From contig JADIMD010000082.1 in assembly GCA_017695015.1 (NCBI GenBank), positions 1-35,289 of the forward strand: DNA of 35,289 nucleotides. Reading direction: 5' to 3'. The stretch is from Candidatus Cryptobacteroides faecigallinarum (lineage in GTDB: Bacteria > Bacteroidota > Bacteroidia > Bacteroidales > UBA932). The notes beneath the pieces were generated by a model. The model did not search any database. It saw only the letters and a program-made list of their open reading frames with translations, and had not been told where the DNA came from. A program made the translations under genes and the position numbers. This document shows, piece by piece, positions 11,825 to 19,066 of this stretch. Positions within the stretch are counted from its first letter, which is position 1; each line of letters opens with the position of its first letter.

Positions 11825-12886
11825 TTAGTTGTTTATCTGATAATCCACAGTGCCGGTGATCGGGCAGCTGAGGCAATTGTTTACAAATCCCGTATTGTCA
11901 TATGCAAGGGCGCAGACCGTAACATTCTCCAAATCCCAGTCCGAGCCTATCTCCACAGTGTATTCCTTGGACATCTCCTGTCCAGGGGCAAGCTGTCCCC
12001 AGCTTTCACCCTTATAGCTGGATGTCAGAAGGGAGCGCACTACATGCCTGTGGTCAAAGTCCTCCTCTTCTCCTCCCGTAATTGTCTTCTGGATAGAGGC
12101 CACATGGTCTTCCACCACGAAAAGGGCCACACGGTATGACGACTGGATGTCCGAAGTCAGCTTGACAGTGACCTTGGCGGAAGAGGACTGCTCGTCATAG
12201 GCAGAAGCGATGGAGAAACCGCAATGTGCGGCAGGAGATTCATCATAGGCGTTCCGCAATGCCCCCCTCTGGGTCATAAGGTCTCCTGCAACCCTCATCT
12301 CGAAGGCAAAGGAAGGAAGCGTCAGCAGCTTGAAATCATTCATCAGCTCTGCCGTAACAGGGATTGCGAGAGGGTCTTCCCCAAGGCTGTTGCCATGGAA
12401 AGCCAGGACGCATGCGTTGTCAAACCCGACAATCTCCCTGCAGAAATATCCCAGCAGATAACTGCTTCCGTCCGGACAGTTGATGCAGTATGCTTCAGTG
12501 AATTCTGCTATGAAATAGTTCTTCTTGTATTTGGAAGAACCGGCAGAAGCCGAGACGGCATTCACATTCGCCCGCTCCGAAGTCTCCCCCATATAGGTCG
12601 CCGTAAAGGCGTAAGAACCAGGAGTATTCGTGCTGAAAGACGCATTCTCCACCCTGCTGCCGTCGGAAATGCAGAGAATCTCCGCAGAAGCAGTCACATC
12701 CGCCCCTCCGTAAGTCACGGTGAAATTCACCCGGTCTTCCCCGTCGGCAGTTATCTGTGACTTGTCTGCGGTCAGGACGATTCCTGACGCCGAATCATCT
12801 ACAGTACCAGAACATGCCGCCGCTGCAAAAGCCGCCATGACGGCAGACACCATATATAATATCCTTTTCAACATATTCTCACTCAT
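11825..12886 (-). CDS. Omp28-like lipoprotein with thioredoxin-like CINC motif (paralog 1)
   Basis: 353 aa; lipobox AAAACSGTVDD; N-terminal Ig-like segment; FTEAYCINCPDGSSYL; C-terminal GTVDYQINN shared with the neighbouring paralogs. Confidence 0.8.
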   Translation of the reverse strand: MSENMLKRILYMVSAVMAAFAAAACSGTVDDSASGIVLTADKSQITADGEDRVNFTVTYGGADVTASAEILCISDGSRVENASFSTNTPGSYAFTATYMGETSERANVNAVSASAGSSKYKKNYFIAEFTEAYCINCPDGSSYLLGYFCREIVGFDNACVLAFHGNSLGEDPLAIPVTAELMNDFKLLTLPSFAFEMRVAGDLMTQRGALRNAYDESPAAHCGFSIASAYDEQSSSAKVTVKLTSDIQSSYRVALFVVEDHVASIQKTITGGEEEDFDHRHVVRSLLTSSYKGESWGQLAPGQEMSKEYTVEIGSDWDLENVTVCALAYDNTGFVNNCLSCPITGTVDYQINN

Positions 12887-14018
12887 CTATCTGATAATCC
12901 GATATACCTCCGTCAAGTACACATGCATTCACATTGTCGCTCCTGTATGACTGTCCGTCCTCTGTCTGGACAAGCACGGCCGCCACGACCCTCATATTGT
13001 CCGGATTCCATTCGTCCGACAGCTGGGCGGTCTTTGTCACCACGCATTCAGTGCCCGGATAGAGAGGCAGCCTGTTGTTGACTGGGTCTCCGGATACGCC
13101 GTTCGTCAGCACTGCACGCACGACATTGTCATGGACATAGTCAGGATCGTCAAGCTGCTGATAGACTATATCGTCTTCCACAAGGAACACTACAAGCCTG
13201 CAGACCTGCTGTATGTTGGATTTGATCCCTGCCGTCACAGTGACTGTCCCTGATGCTTCATCGTATTCGGAGGCTACCGAAATGCCGCATGAAGGGACAT
13301 AGCTGGCCAGTTCGGTCTCAAGTTCCGAGCGTATCACAGAAAAGCTGTTGTTCATCTGCTGGCCATGAGGCTGATGCAGGTTGTAGAAAAGCGCGGGCAG
13401 AATTACATTCGTACCGATAAAGTGGTTGGCAAAAGTGCTCGAAGCCGGGATGGTCATCGGGTCAGGTCCTTGATAATCCATATGGAAAGCAACCGGATAC
13501 AGCATATCAGGATTCTCCGACTGCAGCTGTCTGATTGCGCTGCTCAATGCAGGACATCCTATACATGTAGTTGAAGTGAACTGCACTGCCAGCACTTTCT
13601 GGCTCCACTCGGATGTCTCGGCATCACCCACAGGAAGGGCGGTGACAGTCACAGAATTGTCGGTAAACACGGCCGCTCCGTCATAATACCTTGCCGTGAA
13701 GATATAGGTGCCCGGTGTGGTTGTAGAGAACTCGTTCACACCTGCATCAAGACGGGAATCGTCCTCTTCATATTCGCGGATAAGGTTCATGGACATCGAT
13801 GTGCTGACATCCTCTGCCCCGTACATGACCCTGAATACGACTTTGTCAGTACCGTCCGCCTTTATGGTAGTGGACCCGTCCACAAAAATCCTGAGGACAC
13901 CTTCCGGTACGGTATTATTGTCATCTACTGTTCCCGTGCATGAGAACAGGCACGGAAACAGAATCAGCAATATGGCAAATATGGTACTCTTTGACATGCC
14001 GGGCTTAATTAAGGACAT
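12879..14018 (-). CDS. Omp28-like lipoprotein with thioredoxin-like CIGC motif (paralog 2)
   Basis: 379 aa (possible alternative start at 13997, MSKSTIF); CTGTVDD lipobox; FTSTTCIGCPALSSAI; C-terminal GGISDYQIDE; overlaps both neighbouring genes by a few bases. Confidence 0.8.
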   Translation of the reverse strand: MSLIKPGMSKSTIFAILLILFPCLFSCTGTVDDNNTVPEGVLRIFVDGSTTIKADGTDKVVFRVMYGAEDVSTSMSMNLIREYEEDDSRLDAGVNEFSTTTPGTYIFTARYYDGAAVFTDNSVTVTALPVGDAETSEWSQKVLAVQFTSTTCIGCPALSSAIRQLQSENPDMLYPVAFHMDYQGPDPMTIPASSTFANHFIGTNVILPALFYNLHQPHGQQMNNSFSVIRSELETELASYVPSCGISVASEYDEASGTVTVTAGIKSNIQQVCRLVVFLVEDDIVYQQLDDPDYVHDNVVRAVLTNGVSGDPVNNRLPLYPGTECVVTKTAQLSDEWNPDNMRVVAAVLVQTEDGQSYRSDNVNACVLDGGISDYQIDE

Positions 14019-15108
14019 AATCCACTGATGCGTCTATGTCACATGAAACGATATTGTCCACGATGGTTGCTCCACCGTCGATTCTCCTGAGAGCGAACAC
14101 GACTACCCTGCAGTTGTCCTTGTTGGCCGCAAGGTCAGCAACTTCCAGGTCGAATGTCTTGGTCTGCTCTGCATCTGCTGCAACTTCGAATGCCTGGGCA
14201 GTGTCGAAACGGGTGAAATTGTCTGTGACAGCCCTTACGATATTGTTGTAGATACCACTGGTCTCAGTCCCGCTCGGATATGACTGGTTGTCAAGGAGAA
14301 GTGCGCATCCGAGGTTGTAGGTGTCTCCAGTGCTGGATTTCAGGGTGGCAGAGATATGGAGGTTATTGTCTGCATATTCTGTAGTCACCTTGATTCCGCA
14401 GGTTGCCGGATAATCCCTCCTCTGGTCATTTATCATCTCTTCTATAGTGGAGGTAACCCTGTTGCCGGTCGCTGTGTTGAGATTGATCACAAGATAAGGG
14501 AATCCCTGACCGCCGAACTCGTTTACCAGATAATTGCCGAGGTCGGTATTACCGTAAGCTATTGCAAACGGGTCGTCTCCGCTTCCGTCGCCATGGCATG
14601 CCATAGTCACGGTGTGGCTCTTGATATTGTCGGACATGCCGTTGAGGGCAGATGTCAATGACGGGCAATATACGCACCATGTCCCTGTACATTTGTACAG
14701 TGCCACATTCTTGTGGAATATCTCGTATTTGCTGCGGTTGACGGACGTCACTGTAACGGTGTTCTGGGTGTCGATACCGTTGTATGAGCCGATGATGGTC
14801 ACAGTGGTGTTCTCAAACGCAGAATATGTGCGTGTACGGCGTGGAAGGAATGTATCTGTCTCCACTACCTTGAAATAGCAGGCTCCCAGATCAGTAGCCG
14901 TGACATCGTTACCTGACGCATCCCTGATCGTAAAAGTGGCCACTTCCTTTCCGTCTGCCTCGATCTGGGTCCTGTCTACGGAAATGGTGTACTCGGTCTC
15001 TTCCGGATTGAACGGATTGTCAGTGTTGTCATCAATCGTCCCTGTGCAGGACATTGCCGTCAGTGCCGCAGCAGCGACGGCTGCCGAAATAATGAATTTT
15101 CTGTTCAT
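14005..15108 (-). CDS. Omp28-like lipoprotein with thioredoxin-like WCVYC motif (paralog 3)
   Basis: 367 aa; SCTGTIDD lipobox; KCTGTWCVYCPSLTSALNGM; C-terminal ASVDYVLN. Confidence 0.82.
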   Translation of the reverse strand: MNRKFIISAAVAAAALTAMSCTGTIDDNTDNPFNPEETEYTISVDRTQIEADGKEVATFTIRDASGNDVTATDLGACYFKVVETDTFLPRRTRTYSAFENTTVTIIGSYNGIDTQNTVTVTSVNRSKYEIFHKNVALYKCTGTWCVYCPSLTSALNGMSDNIKSHTVTMACHGDGSGDDPFAIAYGNTDLGNYLVNEFGGQGFPYLVINLNTATGNRVTSTIEEMINDQRRDYPATCGIKVTTEYADNNLHISATLKSSTGDTYNLGCALLLDNQSYPSGTETSGIYNNIVRAVTDNFTRFDTAQAFEVAADAEQTKTFDLEVADLAANKDNCRVVVFALRRIDGGATIVDNIVSCDIDASVDYVLN

Positions 15109-15125: not shown

Positions 15126-16796
15126 TCAGAATGATGTCGTGATGGTGAAGTTCGCGCCCGTGTATGCAGGGATTGCGCGGCAGACGCCTCCCGAGCAGAT
15201 ATATCCTGCCTTATAGCGTCCGTAGGCAAGAGACAGGCGCACCCTCGACTTTGCATAGCTGACACCGACATTGTAATAATGGGTGCCTGTCTGGCCGTGG
15301 TTGACCATGTCGCTTCCGTACACACTCCAGTTAGGAGCGAAATTGAGTTCGAGCAGGGCTGCCATCCAGTCTTTCTGGTCCTCGTGAGTGGTCAGATACT
15401 GGAGTTCGAGACGGGCCGAAATCTTGGAGGTGAACTTATAGAGCAGGTCCGCCACGAAAATATTGGACAGATATGTGCTCTTGTTGGCTCCATAGCTCGG
15501 ATTGTATTCCTGCATGGACCACAGGAGGGTCATCTTGAACGCCCTTGTCCACTGCTTCTCCACATCTATGCTCAAATCCCTGTAGAGCAGGTTGCCGGCC
15601 TTGGCTGTGCCTTCCTCGGCAATGGTGTAATAGGTGGAGAAATTGGCATGGAGCTTCATTCCCCTTTTGCCTCCGAGCGCCGTACCTCTTTTGATATGAT
15701 AGAAGACATCGAGCTGTCCTCCTATCTCACCGCTGTTCACGAAATTTCCCATGAGGTCTCCGGTACGGGAAGTATACGGATGCAGGGTGGTGAGCAGATA
15801 GGTGTACTGGGTACACATTGCCGGCACATAATTCAGCATGTTGGAGGTCGAGCTGTTGTCGCGTAGAATCTTAGAGTCCATCCACTCTATCCTTCTGGCT
15901 GTCAGGTTGAGCCCGAGCCCGTGACCGTTATATCCTGTCTCTATCAGCTGTGCATTGCCGTGCTTTGTGAGATACATCGGATCGGTTGCGGAAGTGATAT
16001 ACGGGTTGTTGTAATATTTATCCCCGGAGTCGACATATTCTCCTTTCAGGAAAAATCCTCCTGTCTCAAGATTGAGCCTTCCGGACCAGCCAAAGGTGTT
16101 AGGCTTGCCGCCTGACTCCTCAAGGTCTACGGAGATGGCCTCGTAACGGTCCATCGCCGAACCTTCAAGGGCGAGATAGACATTGTTCCATCCTGCAAGG
16201 CTTGAAACAGCGAAGCTGACATCGGCACCTTTCACCTGTGTCTTGCTCCATTCCATCCCGAAACGCGGCATTCCCCACATCGCCTTGAAATGCACTATGT
16301 CCTTGTAATGATATGTGAACCTGGCACCTATCAGGGCGTTGTTGAGTCCGAGAGCCCTGTCTTCCCAGGTACGGAAAAGCAGACCGCTTCCGAACTGGTC
16401 ATAGAAGGACCCGGCCGTGATGGAGAAATCATCATCCTGCCATGCCGCATAGTAGTTGGAGAACGCGAAGCCGTCCAGTTCTGACGGATAGCCGACGATT
16501 GCAGGCTCATATGCCTCCATCTGGATTCCTGCCGAAAATTTCCCCTTGTAGTAATCCAGCTTCAGGTAATTGTTGGAGCCCCAATGGGAATCAGGCACGG
16601 AAGCATTGGTCTTCTCGTCCTCATGATACCATGTGGTATTGGTCTCGAAGCTGCCTTTCAGATAGCCTTTGTTGCTGTTTTCCTCTGTGGAGATGCTGTA
16701 GCTGTCATCTGTCTGGGCCACAGCTACCGCTGCAGGCAACAACGACAGGGCAAAGACAGCAGCTATAAATCTCATAGGTATTGCTGTGCTGTACAT
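15126..16796 (-). CDS. DUF6029-like outer membrane beta-barrel protein
   Basis: 556 aa; signal peptide ending VAVAQ; barrel-like alternating pattern; terminal Phe (FTITTSF); GSFYDQFGSGLLFRTWEDRALGLNNALIG resembles DUF6029 family members. Confidence 0.75.
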   Translation of the reverse strand: MYSTAIPMRFIAAVFALSLLPAAVAVAQTDDSYSISTEENSNKGYLKGSFETNTTWYHEDEKTNASVPDSHWGSNNYLKLDYYKGKFSAGIQMEAYEPAIVGYPSELDGFAFSNYYAAWQDDDFSITAGSFYDQFGSGLLFRTWEDRALGLNNALIGARFTYHYKDIVHFKAMWGMPRFGMEWSKTQVKGADVSFAVSSLAGWNNVYLALEGSAMDRYEAISVDLEESGGKPNTFGWSGRLNLETGGFFLKGEYVDSGDKYYNNPYITSATDPMYLTKHGNAQLIETGYNGHGLGLNLTARRIEWMDSKILRDNSSTSNMLNYVPAMCTQYTYLLTTLHPYTSRTGDLMGNFVNSGEIGGQLDVFYHIKRGTALGGKRGMKLHANFSTYYTIAEEGTAKAGNLLYRDLSIDVEKQWTRAFKMTLLWSMQEYNPSYGANKSTYLSNIFVADLLYKFTSKISARLELQYLTTHEDQKDWMAALLELNFAPNWSVYGSDMVNHGQTGTHYYNVGVSYAKSRVRLSLAYGRYKAGYICSGGVCRAIPAYTGANFTITTSF

Positions 16797-16802
16797 GGCC
16801 GG

Positions 16803-17285
16803 CTATTCGAGTCCTTTGATGATTTCTATAAGTTCTTCCTCGCTTCCCGGTGTGTATCCGGTGTGGGCATAGACAATCTTGCCGTTTTTGTCCACCACAT
16901 ATACCTGCGGAGTGACTGAGACATTCATCGCCCGTGCAAAAGCCTGGTTGGTGTCATATACACAGATAAAATCGCTCCAGCCATGTCCTTCCGCAAGAGA
17001 ACGGGCCTTGGTGGTGAACCTGCTGTCGTCAGTGGACACTGCCACTACCCTGAATTCCGCTTCATCAAGCCAGTCAGGCAGGACATCGTTGATGGCATCC
17101 AGCTCCCTGATGCAAGGCTTGCAGATTGTCGACCAGAATGAAATAATCATAGGGGTCTTCTCCTCGAGCAAAGCCGAAGTGTTGAACACATCGCCTTTAT
17201 GGTCATAGATGTCGACTGACGGCACCTGAGCTACTGCCGTGAATGACAGCAGGACCAATGATAAGGTAAGTAATATCTGTTTCAT
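16803..17285 (-). CDS. TlpA-like thioredoxin family protein
   Basis: 160 aa; signal peptide; FWSTICKPCIRELDAI (CxxC) and VTPQVYVVDKNGKIVYAHTGY cis-Pro region. Confidence 0.92.
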   Translation of the reverse strand: MKQILLTLSLVLLSFTAVAQVPSVDIYDHKGDVFNTSALLEEKTPMIISFWSTICKPCIRELDAINDVLPDWLDEAEFRVVAVSTDDSRFTTKARSLAEGHGWSDFICVYDTNQAFARAMNVSVTPQVYVVDKNGKIVYAHTGYTPGSEEELIEIIKGLE

Positions 17286-17371: not shown

Positions 17372-17405
17372 AAAAAAGCCCTGATATCGCGTGATATCAG
17401 AGCCT
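17372..17405 (-). terminator. Intrinsic terminator upstream of the TlpA operon
   Basis: Minus strand AGGCTCTGATATC-ACGC-GATATCAGGGCTTTTTT: about 13-bp stem with two wobbles, 4-nt loop, T-tract. Confidence 0.8.
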
Positions 17406-17522
17406 GATAAATCGACTAAATCGGGCTTTGGAATTATCGGCTACGAGACAAATACCCCCCCTGAGAGAGATATTTTCTAGACTTATGTTAATAATACCTG
17501 CCATGATAATTCCTAAAAATAG

Positions 17523-17551
17523 TGGCTGTAATGCTTTCGACAGCCATTTTT
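17523..17551. terminator. Hairpin, probable (bidirectional) terminator downstream of TolC gene
   Basis: Perfect 7-bp arms TGGCTGT (17523-17529) / ACAGCCA (17540-17546), flanked by TTTTTG on plus and CTATTTTT on minus. Confidence 0.5.
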
Positions 17552-17566
17552 GTCTTTGAATCGCGA

Positions 17567-17597
17567 CAAATATAGGAATTATCTTATTGTATCCAAA
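17567..17597 (-). promoter_or_regulatory. Candidate Bacteroidetes housekeeping promoter (TTTG-N19-TATATTTG)
   Basis: Minus strand TTTG (17597-17594), 19-bp spacer, TATATTTG (17574-17567), matching the published Bacteroides consensus TTTG / TAnnTTTG. Confidence 0.6.
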
Positions 17598-17614
17598 ATT
17601 TTTACAGAAATTTT

Positions 17615-19066
17615 TCATAAAGAGGAATATCTGACATAGGCATTCCTGTATGCGATACGGGCATCCACGAGGGCATCTGCGCTCTGCCTGAGAGCCGTCT
17701 GGGCCTCAAGCAGCTCGGAAAGCGGCACAAGGCCTGCCCTGTAGCGGTCTTCCATCTGTCTGACAGTGGATTGGGCCGCCCTGACGCTCTCTTCTGCGAC
17801 CTGCGCCTGCTCCCATGACACTGTCAGCTCCAGCCACTGCTGCCTGATCTGAAGGAGCAGCTGGGACTCCAAATATTCCCTGTCATTCTCTGCTTTCTGC
17901 ACCTGATAGCCCTGCCTCCTGACCTTACGGGAATATTTTCCCCAGTCAGTTATAGGAATCCTGAGTGTGGCATATACCGCACCGTTGAGCCTTGCGTCAT
18001 CGAACATCATGTCGTTGTAGCCGTACGAAAGTCCAACCCCCAGCTGCGGAAGCACTTCCCCGAGAGCCATCTTCTTCTCCATCTGCTTGGCTTTCACCGA
18101 GATGTCCAGCAGTCTCGACTCTTCTCTCCCTGCCAATATCTCCTTCTCATCCCTCCAGCAGGAAGCCGGCTCTTCAAGGGACCCGAGGTCATCCGCCAAA
18201 ACGATGCTGTCTATATAAGGCAATGTGTCGGATGCCATCGTGGAATATGGAGAATAAGCCACTCCTATGGAATTGCAGAGATTCATCTTGGCAAGGCGGA
18301 TTCCTCCCTTGAGCTTGGTCCGGGTCGCTTGCAGCTCATTCTGCTTCAATCTGAGCTGCAACCTGTCCGTCTCAGTGGCGATTCCTGCCGACACGGCCGC
18401 ATTGACATCCTTTTCGAGATTGTCCAGCATCTTCTGCACCTCCTGCACCGTCTTCATCTTCTCTTCGAGAGACACCACCTGCCAATATTCTTCCTCCACT
18501 TCTTCCCTGCTCTTACGCTGCTGCATAGTGCTCTGGAGCCTGGCCGCCTCCACTCCGAGAGAGGCAAGCCTGTTGCCGTTCACTATCCTTCCGCCTGCAA
18601 ATACGGGCTGGATTACCGACACAGTGGCGCTATACCCCTGCTTCATGGTGGAATAGACAGGGTCTATACCGTACATGGGAGCAACCTGCCCTATCCAGCT
18701 GTTGATATTGTTGGCCAAATCGGAATCCCCGAGAATATCCTTGACTCCTATTTCCAGCATAGGGTCAAAGGCATAGTAGCCGAATGCGTTGATGGAGACC
18801 TTTGGGAAATATTCCGCCACTGCCTCCCCTTTCTGCGCTTGTGCTGCAAGCACATCGAGAGCGGCGTTCCTCACAGAGGCATTGTTGCGGAGCGCCAATG
18901 AACGGCAGTCTTCTATGGTCAGCACGACTTTGCCTCCGCTGACGGCACTGCTGTCCTGCCCTGTCATTGTCATTCCTGACGCCCGGCAGATACCTTCCTG
19001 GACACCGCCAAGGCAGAATCCTGCGGCAACCAATGCTGCCGCCATATATTTTATTGTTCTATTCAT
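17615..19066 (-). CDS. TolC family outer membrane efflux protein
   Basis: 483 aa; LTIEDCRSLALRNNASVRNAALDVLAAQAQ and the duplicated helical region YRAGLVPLSELLEAQTALRQSADALVDARIAYRNAYVRY. Confidence 0.93.
   Translation of the reverse strand: MNRTIKYMAAALVAAGFCLGGVQEGICRASGMTMTGQDSSAVSGGKVVLTIEDCRSLALRNNASVRNAALDVLAAQAQKGEAVAEYFPKVSINAFGYYAFDPMLEIGVKDILGDSDLANNINSWIGQVAPMYGIDPVYSTMKQGYSATVSVIQPVFAGGRIVNGNRLASLGVEAARLQSTMQQRKSREEVEEEYWQVVSLEEKMKTVQEVQKMLDNLEKDVNAAVSAGIATETDRLQLRLKQNELQATRTKLKGGIRLAKMNLCNSIGVAYSPYSTMASDTLPYIDSIVLADDLGSLEEPASCWRDEKEILAGREESRLLDISVKAKQMEKKMALGEVLPQLGVGLSYGYNDMMFDDARLNGAVYATLRIPITDWGKYSRKVRRQGYQVQKAENDREYLESQLLLQIRQQWLELTVSWEQAQVAEESVRAAQSTVRQMEDRYRAGLVPLSELLEAQTALRQSADALVDARIAYRNAYVRYSSL

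Follow-up and report, generated by a model that had tools for sequence, protein, structure and literature searches.

The leader upstream of the tlpA operon in the window, the whole 35,289-nucleotide stretch of DNA that was analysed, is probably a phase-variable leader-peptide transcription attenuator, in which the length of a G tract within a short open reading frame (ORF) would set the fate of transcription at a terminator. The sequence basis for this is a kept layout, a leader ORF, ON as well as OFF reading frames in each leader, and differences in tract length; from these we infer translation of the ORF, reversible switching within a population, and ribosome-mediated antitermination. The host draft genome comprises 2.08 Mb in 125 contigs and belongs to a large genus. 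The features of the locus are as follows:

17615-19066: outer-membrane efflux gene, the upstream neighbour; the leader lies between it and tlpA, on the minus strand
17594-17597, minus strand: -33 element TTTG of a Bacteroidota-type promoter, kept in the five tlpA leaders
17567-17574, minus strand: -7 element TATATTTG, N19 after the -33 element
17523-17546, minus strand: 5′ hairpin TGGCTGT...ACAGCCA, 7 bp with a loop of 10
17505-17513, minus strand: GGAATTATC, 5′ arm of a 9-bp helix bracketing the G tract
17397-17504, minus strand: leader ORF of 35 amino acids, MAGIINISLENISLRGGICLVADNSKARFSRFIRL, from ATG 17504 to TGA 17399-17397
17455-17461, minus strand: G7 tract inside the leader ORF, the proposed variable tract
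17441-17443, minus strand: TAG, the stop with a G6 or G9 tract, 38 nt before the terminator, OFF-like
17434-17436, minus strand: TAA, the stop with a G8 tract, 31 nt before the terminator, OFF-like
17430-17438, minus strand: GATAATTCC, 3′ arm of the 9-bp helix bracketing the G tract
17429-17423, minus strand: AAAGCCC
17372-17405, minus strand: intrinsic terminator, a 12-13 bp stem (17405-17376) with six Ts (17377-17372)
16803-17285, minus strand: tlpA, operon gene 1, for a TlpA/redoxin-like exported protein, ATG 17285
15126-16796, minus strand: gene for a DUF6029 family protein
11825-15108, minus strand: three Omp28-family genes (14005-15108, 12879-14018 and 11825-12886)

An earlier note on this DNA had placed the promoter, the hairpin, GGAATTATC, GATAATTCC, AAAGCCC and the terminator on the minus strand, and all of them are where it put them. 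Its description of the leader as structured also holds: the 196-nt leader folds at -59 kcal/mol, compared with -39.1 ± 3.9 in dinucleotide shuffles (z -5.1). The terminator was detected independently of that note, with a hairpin of about -17 kcal/mol (-17.7 in one computation), and the tlpA ATG at 17285 lies 86 nt past its T-run. What had been missed is the G7 tract, which is the sole G or C run of at least 7 in the window, and the 35-codon ORF that contains it. The TGA of this ORF falls inside the 5′ arm of the terminator stem, so that with seven Gs the stop is 6 nt into the stem. Around the promoter, a second GATAATTCC at 17583-17575 abuts the -7 element, so that GGAATTATC (17513-17505) is perfectly complementary to two segments; when flanking bases are included, GATAATTCCTA/TAGGAATTATC make an 11-bp inverted repeat around the expected transcript start, and the -33 element lies outside the short inverted repeat formed by the upstream GATAATTCC and GGAATTATC. 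There is also a 19-codon ORF in another frame, MAVESITATIFRNYHGRYY (17548-17489, minus strand), that overlaps the start of the leader ORF and was not seen in orthologues.

In the mechanism that we propose, transcription would begin near 17561, and a ribosome would translate the short leader ORF through the G7 tract, the length of which would be altered by slippage during DNA replication. With 7 (or 10) Gs, the ORF would stop inside the terminator stem, the ribosome would cover the stem, and the polymerase would read through into tlpA-DUF6029-Omp28 and express it (ON); the window genome, with G7, would be in the ON state. With 6, 8 or 9 Gs, the ribosome would leave 31-38 nt before the stem, the terminator would form, and operon expression would be low (OFF). 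To our knowledge, transcription-translation coupling strong enough for such antitermination is not established in Bacteroidota.

A DNA similarity search with the leader in 100 relatives matched only itself; the leader sequence evolves too fast for such a search to find its relatives. Protein searches with the window's TlpA, whose closest relatives are from Bacteroidales metagenome assemblies, led to four further species with TlpA 81-85 % identical. There the layout of the window is kept 5′ of tlpA, and the leader sequence has diverged. All five species have a TTTG-N19-20-TANNTTTG promoter at -264 to -291 of tlpA and a terminator 52-95 nt 5′ of the gene. Between these lie an ATGG start in all five leaders, with an equivalent leader ORF in the four orthologous ones, and, at -166 to -180, a tract of 7-9 G, which in one leader reads GGGGAGGGG. 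Thus promoter, leader ORF, G tract and terminator are kept across the five leaders. The leader peptide is not conserved, and Pfam and NCBIfam searches with the leader peptides gave no match. A 5′ hairpin is also present in three other leaders (L033, L034, L003), with no conservation of sequence. Nor is the sequence of the 9-bp helix bracketing the tract conserved, and in 30 leaders, helices in that position did not exceed chance (mean z -0.4). At a mean column identity of 58 %, the alignment of the five tlpA leaders is too diverged to judge covariation. Amid this divergence, a 29-nt block, GTATGGAATTCYGTAGTATGGAATACTGA, is almost invariant upstream of tlpA in L032, L033 and L034; the one change within it and the base change that follows both leave the ON-frame peptide (VWNSVVWNTD) unaltered.

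The gene upstream of the leader differs between species: an efflux protein in the window, an AraC-type regulator (a label from reading the sequence) in L032-L034, and another gene in L035. Among 53 tlpA orthologues, 35 have a consensus promoter 13-130 nt before tlpA, and only the five-species group has its promoter solely beyond -260 with a terminator between. Because the promoter is distal only and the upstream genes differ, we take the leader to be linked to tlpA and to have replaced its direct promoter. The earlier proposal of an attenuator in cis of the operon is therefore supported: in five species the leader precedes tlpA despite the differing upstream genes, and it takes the place of the proximal promoter of most other orthologues. 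In the window, a weak promoter-like CATGTTTG (17336-17329), 51 nt 5′ of tlpA and with 1 mismatch to the -7 consensus, is possibly a decayed ancestral proximal promoter.

The effect of tract length on the reading frame was computed for each of the five tlpA leaders. In all of them, one-third of tract lengths are ON-like, with a stop no earlier than -2 counted from the base of the terminator; two-thirds are OFF-like, with a stop 25-60 nt short of the terminator. For these five leaders alone, the frame test did not exceed chance. One of them, L032, is in an OFF frame at present, and since its tract is interrupted (GGGGAGGGG), it is probably locked.

We searched Bacteroidales genomes with a loose pattern (TTTG, a G run and a T run), taking the reversed pattern as the control. 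The genus gave 10 matches against 1 for the control, and a second genus search 17 against 6; 14 selected Bacteroidales genomes gave 12 against 1, and another Bacteroidales family 41 against 7. No enrichment was found in a sample of 268 genomes from the phylum, almost all of them from other orders and with the window's own genome left out (11 against 15). Six matches were dropped for having no promoter, no following gene or a repetitive context. We also filtered matches for a terminator hairpin, a filter that is independent of reading frames. An ATG-started ORF open into the tract is present in 26 of the 28 unique Bacteroidales matches with a terminator and in 22 of the 46 without (Fisher p = 5 × 10−5); outside the order, 1 of 11 matches has a terminator and 3 of 11 have the ORF. 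When non-redundant leaders were compared with shuffles, the leader ORF ran into the tract in 28/30 (12.5 expected, p = 7 × 10−10). One or more ON frames, which reach the terminator, were combined with one or more OFF frames, which stop 20 nt or more before it, in 30/30 (21.9 expected, p = 5 × 10−5). Two other candidate signals were rejected: selection for reading wholly through the terminator (23/37 against 19.5 expected) was not significant, and a conserved peptide after the tract (GKSLI.NEL-like) was dropped, its frame being often closed. In the other family, many copies (L117, L157, L162, L163, L173 and others) have GUAANNNN...NNNNUUAC complementarity just past the tract and a UCAA motif about 15 nt past it; this may be a further RNA element.

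Of 37 leaders, 31 are on the same strand as, and 30-250 nt before, a gene that is mostly for an exported protein, and a hydrophobic signal-like N-terminal segment is present in 29 of the 31 detectable downstream ORFs. Apart from the window operon, we identified these genes by eye from the sequence; SusC-type receptors, lipoproteins and barrels are among them, and the variants are an MBOAT protein and a DNA methyltransferase-like gene. In the window's genome, an outer-membrane barrel gene is preceded by a second leader (L099; contig C72, 27297-27479, minus strand); the tail of L099 past the terminator (TTTTTTGTGTCATAT) is identical to that of the window's leader. The poly-G leader L174 precedes the DNA methyltransferase-like gene, and DNA methyltransferase genes are a class that is often phase-variable in other bacteria. 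In one genome, diverged leaders with G9 and G11 (L165 and L187) each precede near-identical lipoprotein genes, an arrangement as expected of duplicated contingency loci.

This placement bears on the possibility that the unit is a stand-alone small RNA of about 190 nt or a small-protein gene, with tlpA expressed by read-through or from its own promoter. A promoter and a terminator do delimit the unit, an ORF is present, and multicopy small RNA families exist in Bacteroides, such as FopS (PMC11697453). We nevertheless think this unlikely, since the leader accompanies tlpA in place of a proximal promoter, most leaders sit on the same strand before a gene that is mostly for an exported protein, the peptide is not conserved, and 3 of the 5 tlpA orthologues lack any promoter-like site past the terminator. 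The small RNA suggested earlier fits poorly: the tlpA linkage, the leader ORF and the many copies upstream of genes for exported proteins speak for a leader that acts in cis. FopS and GibS resemble the leaders in being multicopy, SusC-linked short transcripts that end at a terminator. However, they are not leaders: they are about 65-70 nt long and act in trans through a single-stranded seed, and no ORF was found in their loci (PMC11697453). The window leader is about 190 nt long, has an ORF and has no Rfam match, and would not be counted among them.

The tracts of other copies have 7-11 G, and loci that are otherwise near-identical, with few gaps or none outside the tract, have tracts of unequal length. 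L154 and L158 have G7 and G9, with flanks 97 and 99 % identical and no gaps; the pairs L128/L179 and L117/L203 have G8/G9 and G7/G8, and L191/L184, two copies in one genome, have G9/G10. These comparisons are among close relatives and paralogous copies in assembled genomes, many of them metagenomic, and we excluded L161/L164, whose upstream sequences differ. At present, 14 non-redundant leaders are ON-like and 13 OFF-like, an even split that is as expected of a drifting switch, with neither state visibly kept, and that is no independent proof of one. Long G runs can slip, and RNA polymerase or ribosome slippage at the tract could instead give each cell a constant mixture of frames, tuning expression with no heritable switch. 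Such tuning would also explain the out-of-frame copies. We find it quite improbable, however, because the tract length itself changes between close relatives and because little slippage would be expected at short G7 tracts or at the interrupted tract of L032.

A conventional attenuator or riboswitch, in which a signal or ligand decides whether the terminator or an antiterminator (for example AAAGCCC:GGGCTTT) forms, had been suggested for this leader. The strong overall fold agrees with it, and AAAGCCC is able to pair with GGGCTTT, with the forced fold just 2.1 kcal/mol above the best. But the 7-bp pairing (-9.3 kcal/mol) is weaker than the terminator hairpin (-17.7), specific to the window genome and missing in the orthologues. 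At gathering as well as permissive thresholds, the window and 22 related loci gave no Rfam match at the leaders (a weak sau-41 match was judged to be chance). The structure before the terminator is not shared: leaders are not consistently structured once the terminator is left out, two tlpA leaders then having z above 0. Finally, the fast divergence of the sequence is unlike that of a ligand pocket. On these grounds, a riboswitch or the AAAGCCC antiterminator is a very improbable explanation, and control more likely resides in a G tract of variable length within a translated leader ORF. Also very improbable is a leader peptide that senses amino acids or antibiotics, where ribosome stalling in the ORF (e.g., at Gly codons or RF.RF) would relieve termination: the tlpA leaders have in-frame Gly codons, and their two groups have tandem RF and VWN motifs, but the leaders share no regulatory codons, many copies have a stop directly after the tract in the present frame, and the downstream genes are neither biosynthetic nor resistance genes.

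The closest known parallel to a phase-variable attenuator of this type is in pil1 and pil3 of Streptococcus gallolyticus (PMC3894217). At pil1, GCAGA repeats in a leader ORF set where the ORF ends; an end 39-49 nt before the terminator gives low expression, an end at or within it high expression, and removing the start codon of the leader ORF acts as predicted (PMC3894217). The Bacteroidales leaders likewise have a promoter and an intrinsic terminator enclosing the leader, an ORF with a simple repeat, a stop position set by the repeat number (at or through the terminator for ON, some 30-50 nt before it for OFF) and a surface-protein operon downstream. They would work like pil1, an analogy that claims neither membership by descent nor sequence homology. 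The repeat there is GCAGA, whereas here it is poly-G behind TTTG/TANNTTTG promoters; here there are many loci with varied downstream genes. The poly-G/C contingency loci of Neisseria and Campylobacter also have a G tract of at least 7, a length-variable frame switch and surface genes, but their tract lies in the gene's own ORF or promoter, whereas here a separate leader ORF would act through the terminator. In the same order, invertible promoters of Bacteroidales similarly turn SusC-type and capsule loci on and off; they do so by recombinase-driven DNA inversion, in contrast to the tract slippage proposed here. Inverted repeats there flank the promoter as a whole; the short repeat near the window's expected transcript start leaves the -33 element outside.

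In the open-access literature, we found phase variation of Bacteroides by DNA inversion and poly-G switches in other phyla, but no poly-G leader attenuator in Bacteroidota; a poly-G leader-peptide attenuator is apparently unreported in Bacteroidales. Short ORFs in long 5′ untranslated regions, reminiscent of attenuation leader peptides and untested, were described in the B. thetaiotaomicron transcriptome (PMC7366714). On the sequence comparisons made here, the chances seem about even that these leaders constitute a class of phase-variable attenuators that is dispersed in Bacteroidales and evolves fast, with a variable poly-G tract in a leader ORF governing a terminator before outer-membrane, lipoprotein and occasional DNA-modification genes, and thus a second route to phase variation besides DNA inversion. 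Most of what is known of phase variation in Bacteroidales concerns invertible DNA. If the proposal is true, a slippage switch would add surface-protein loci that annotation has missed, the leader that holds the switch being unannotated, and ribosomes of Bacteroidota would follow RNA polymerase closely enough to prevent termination.
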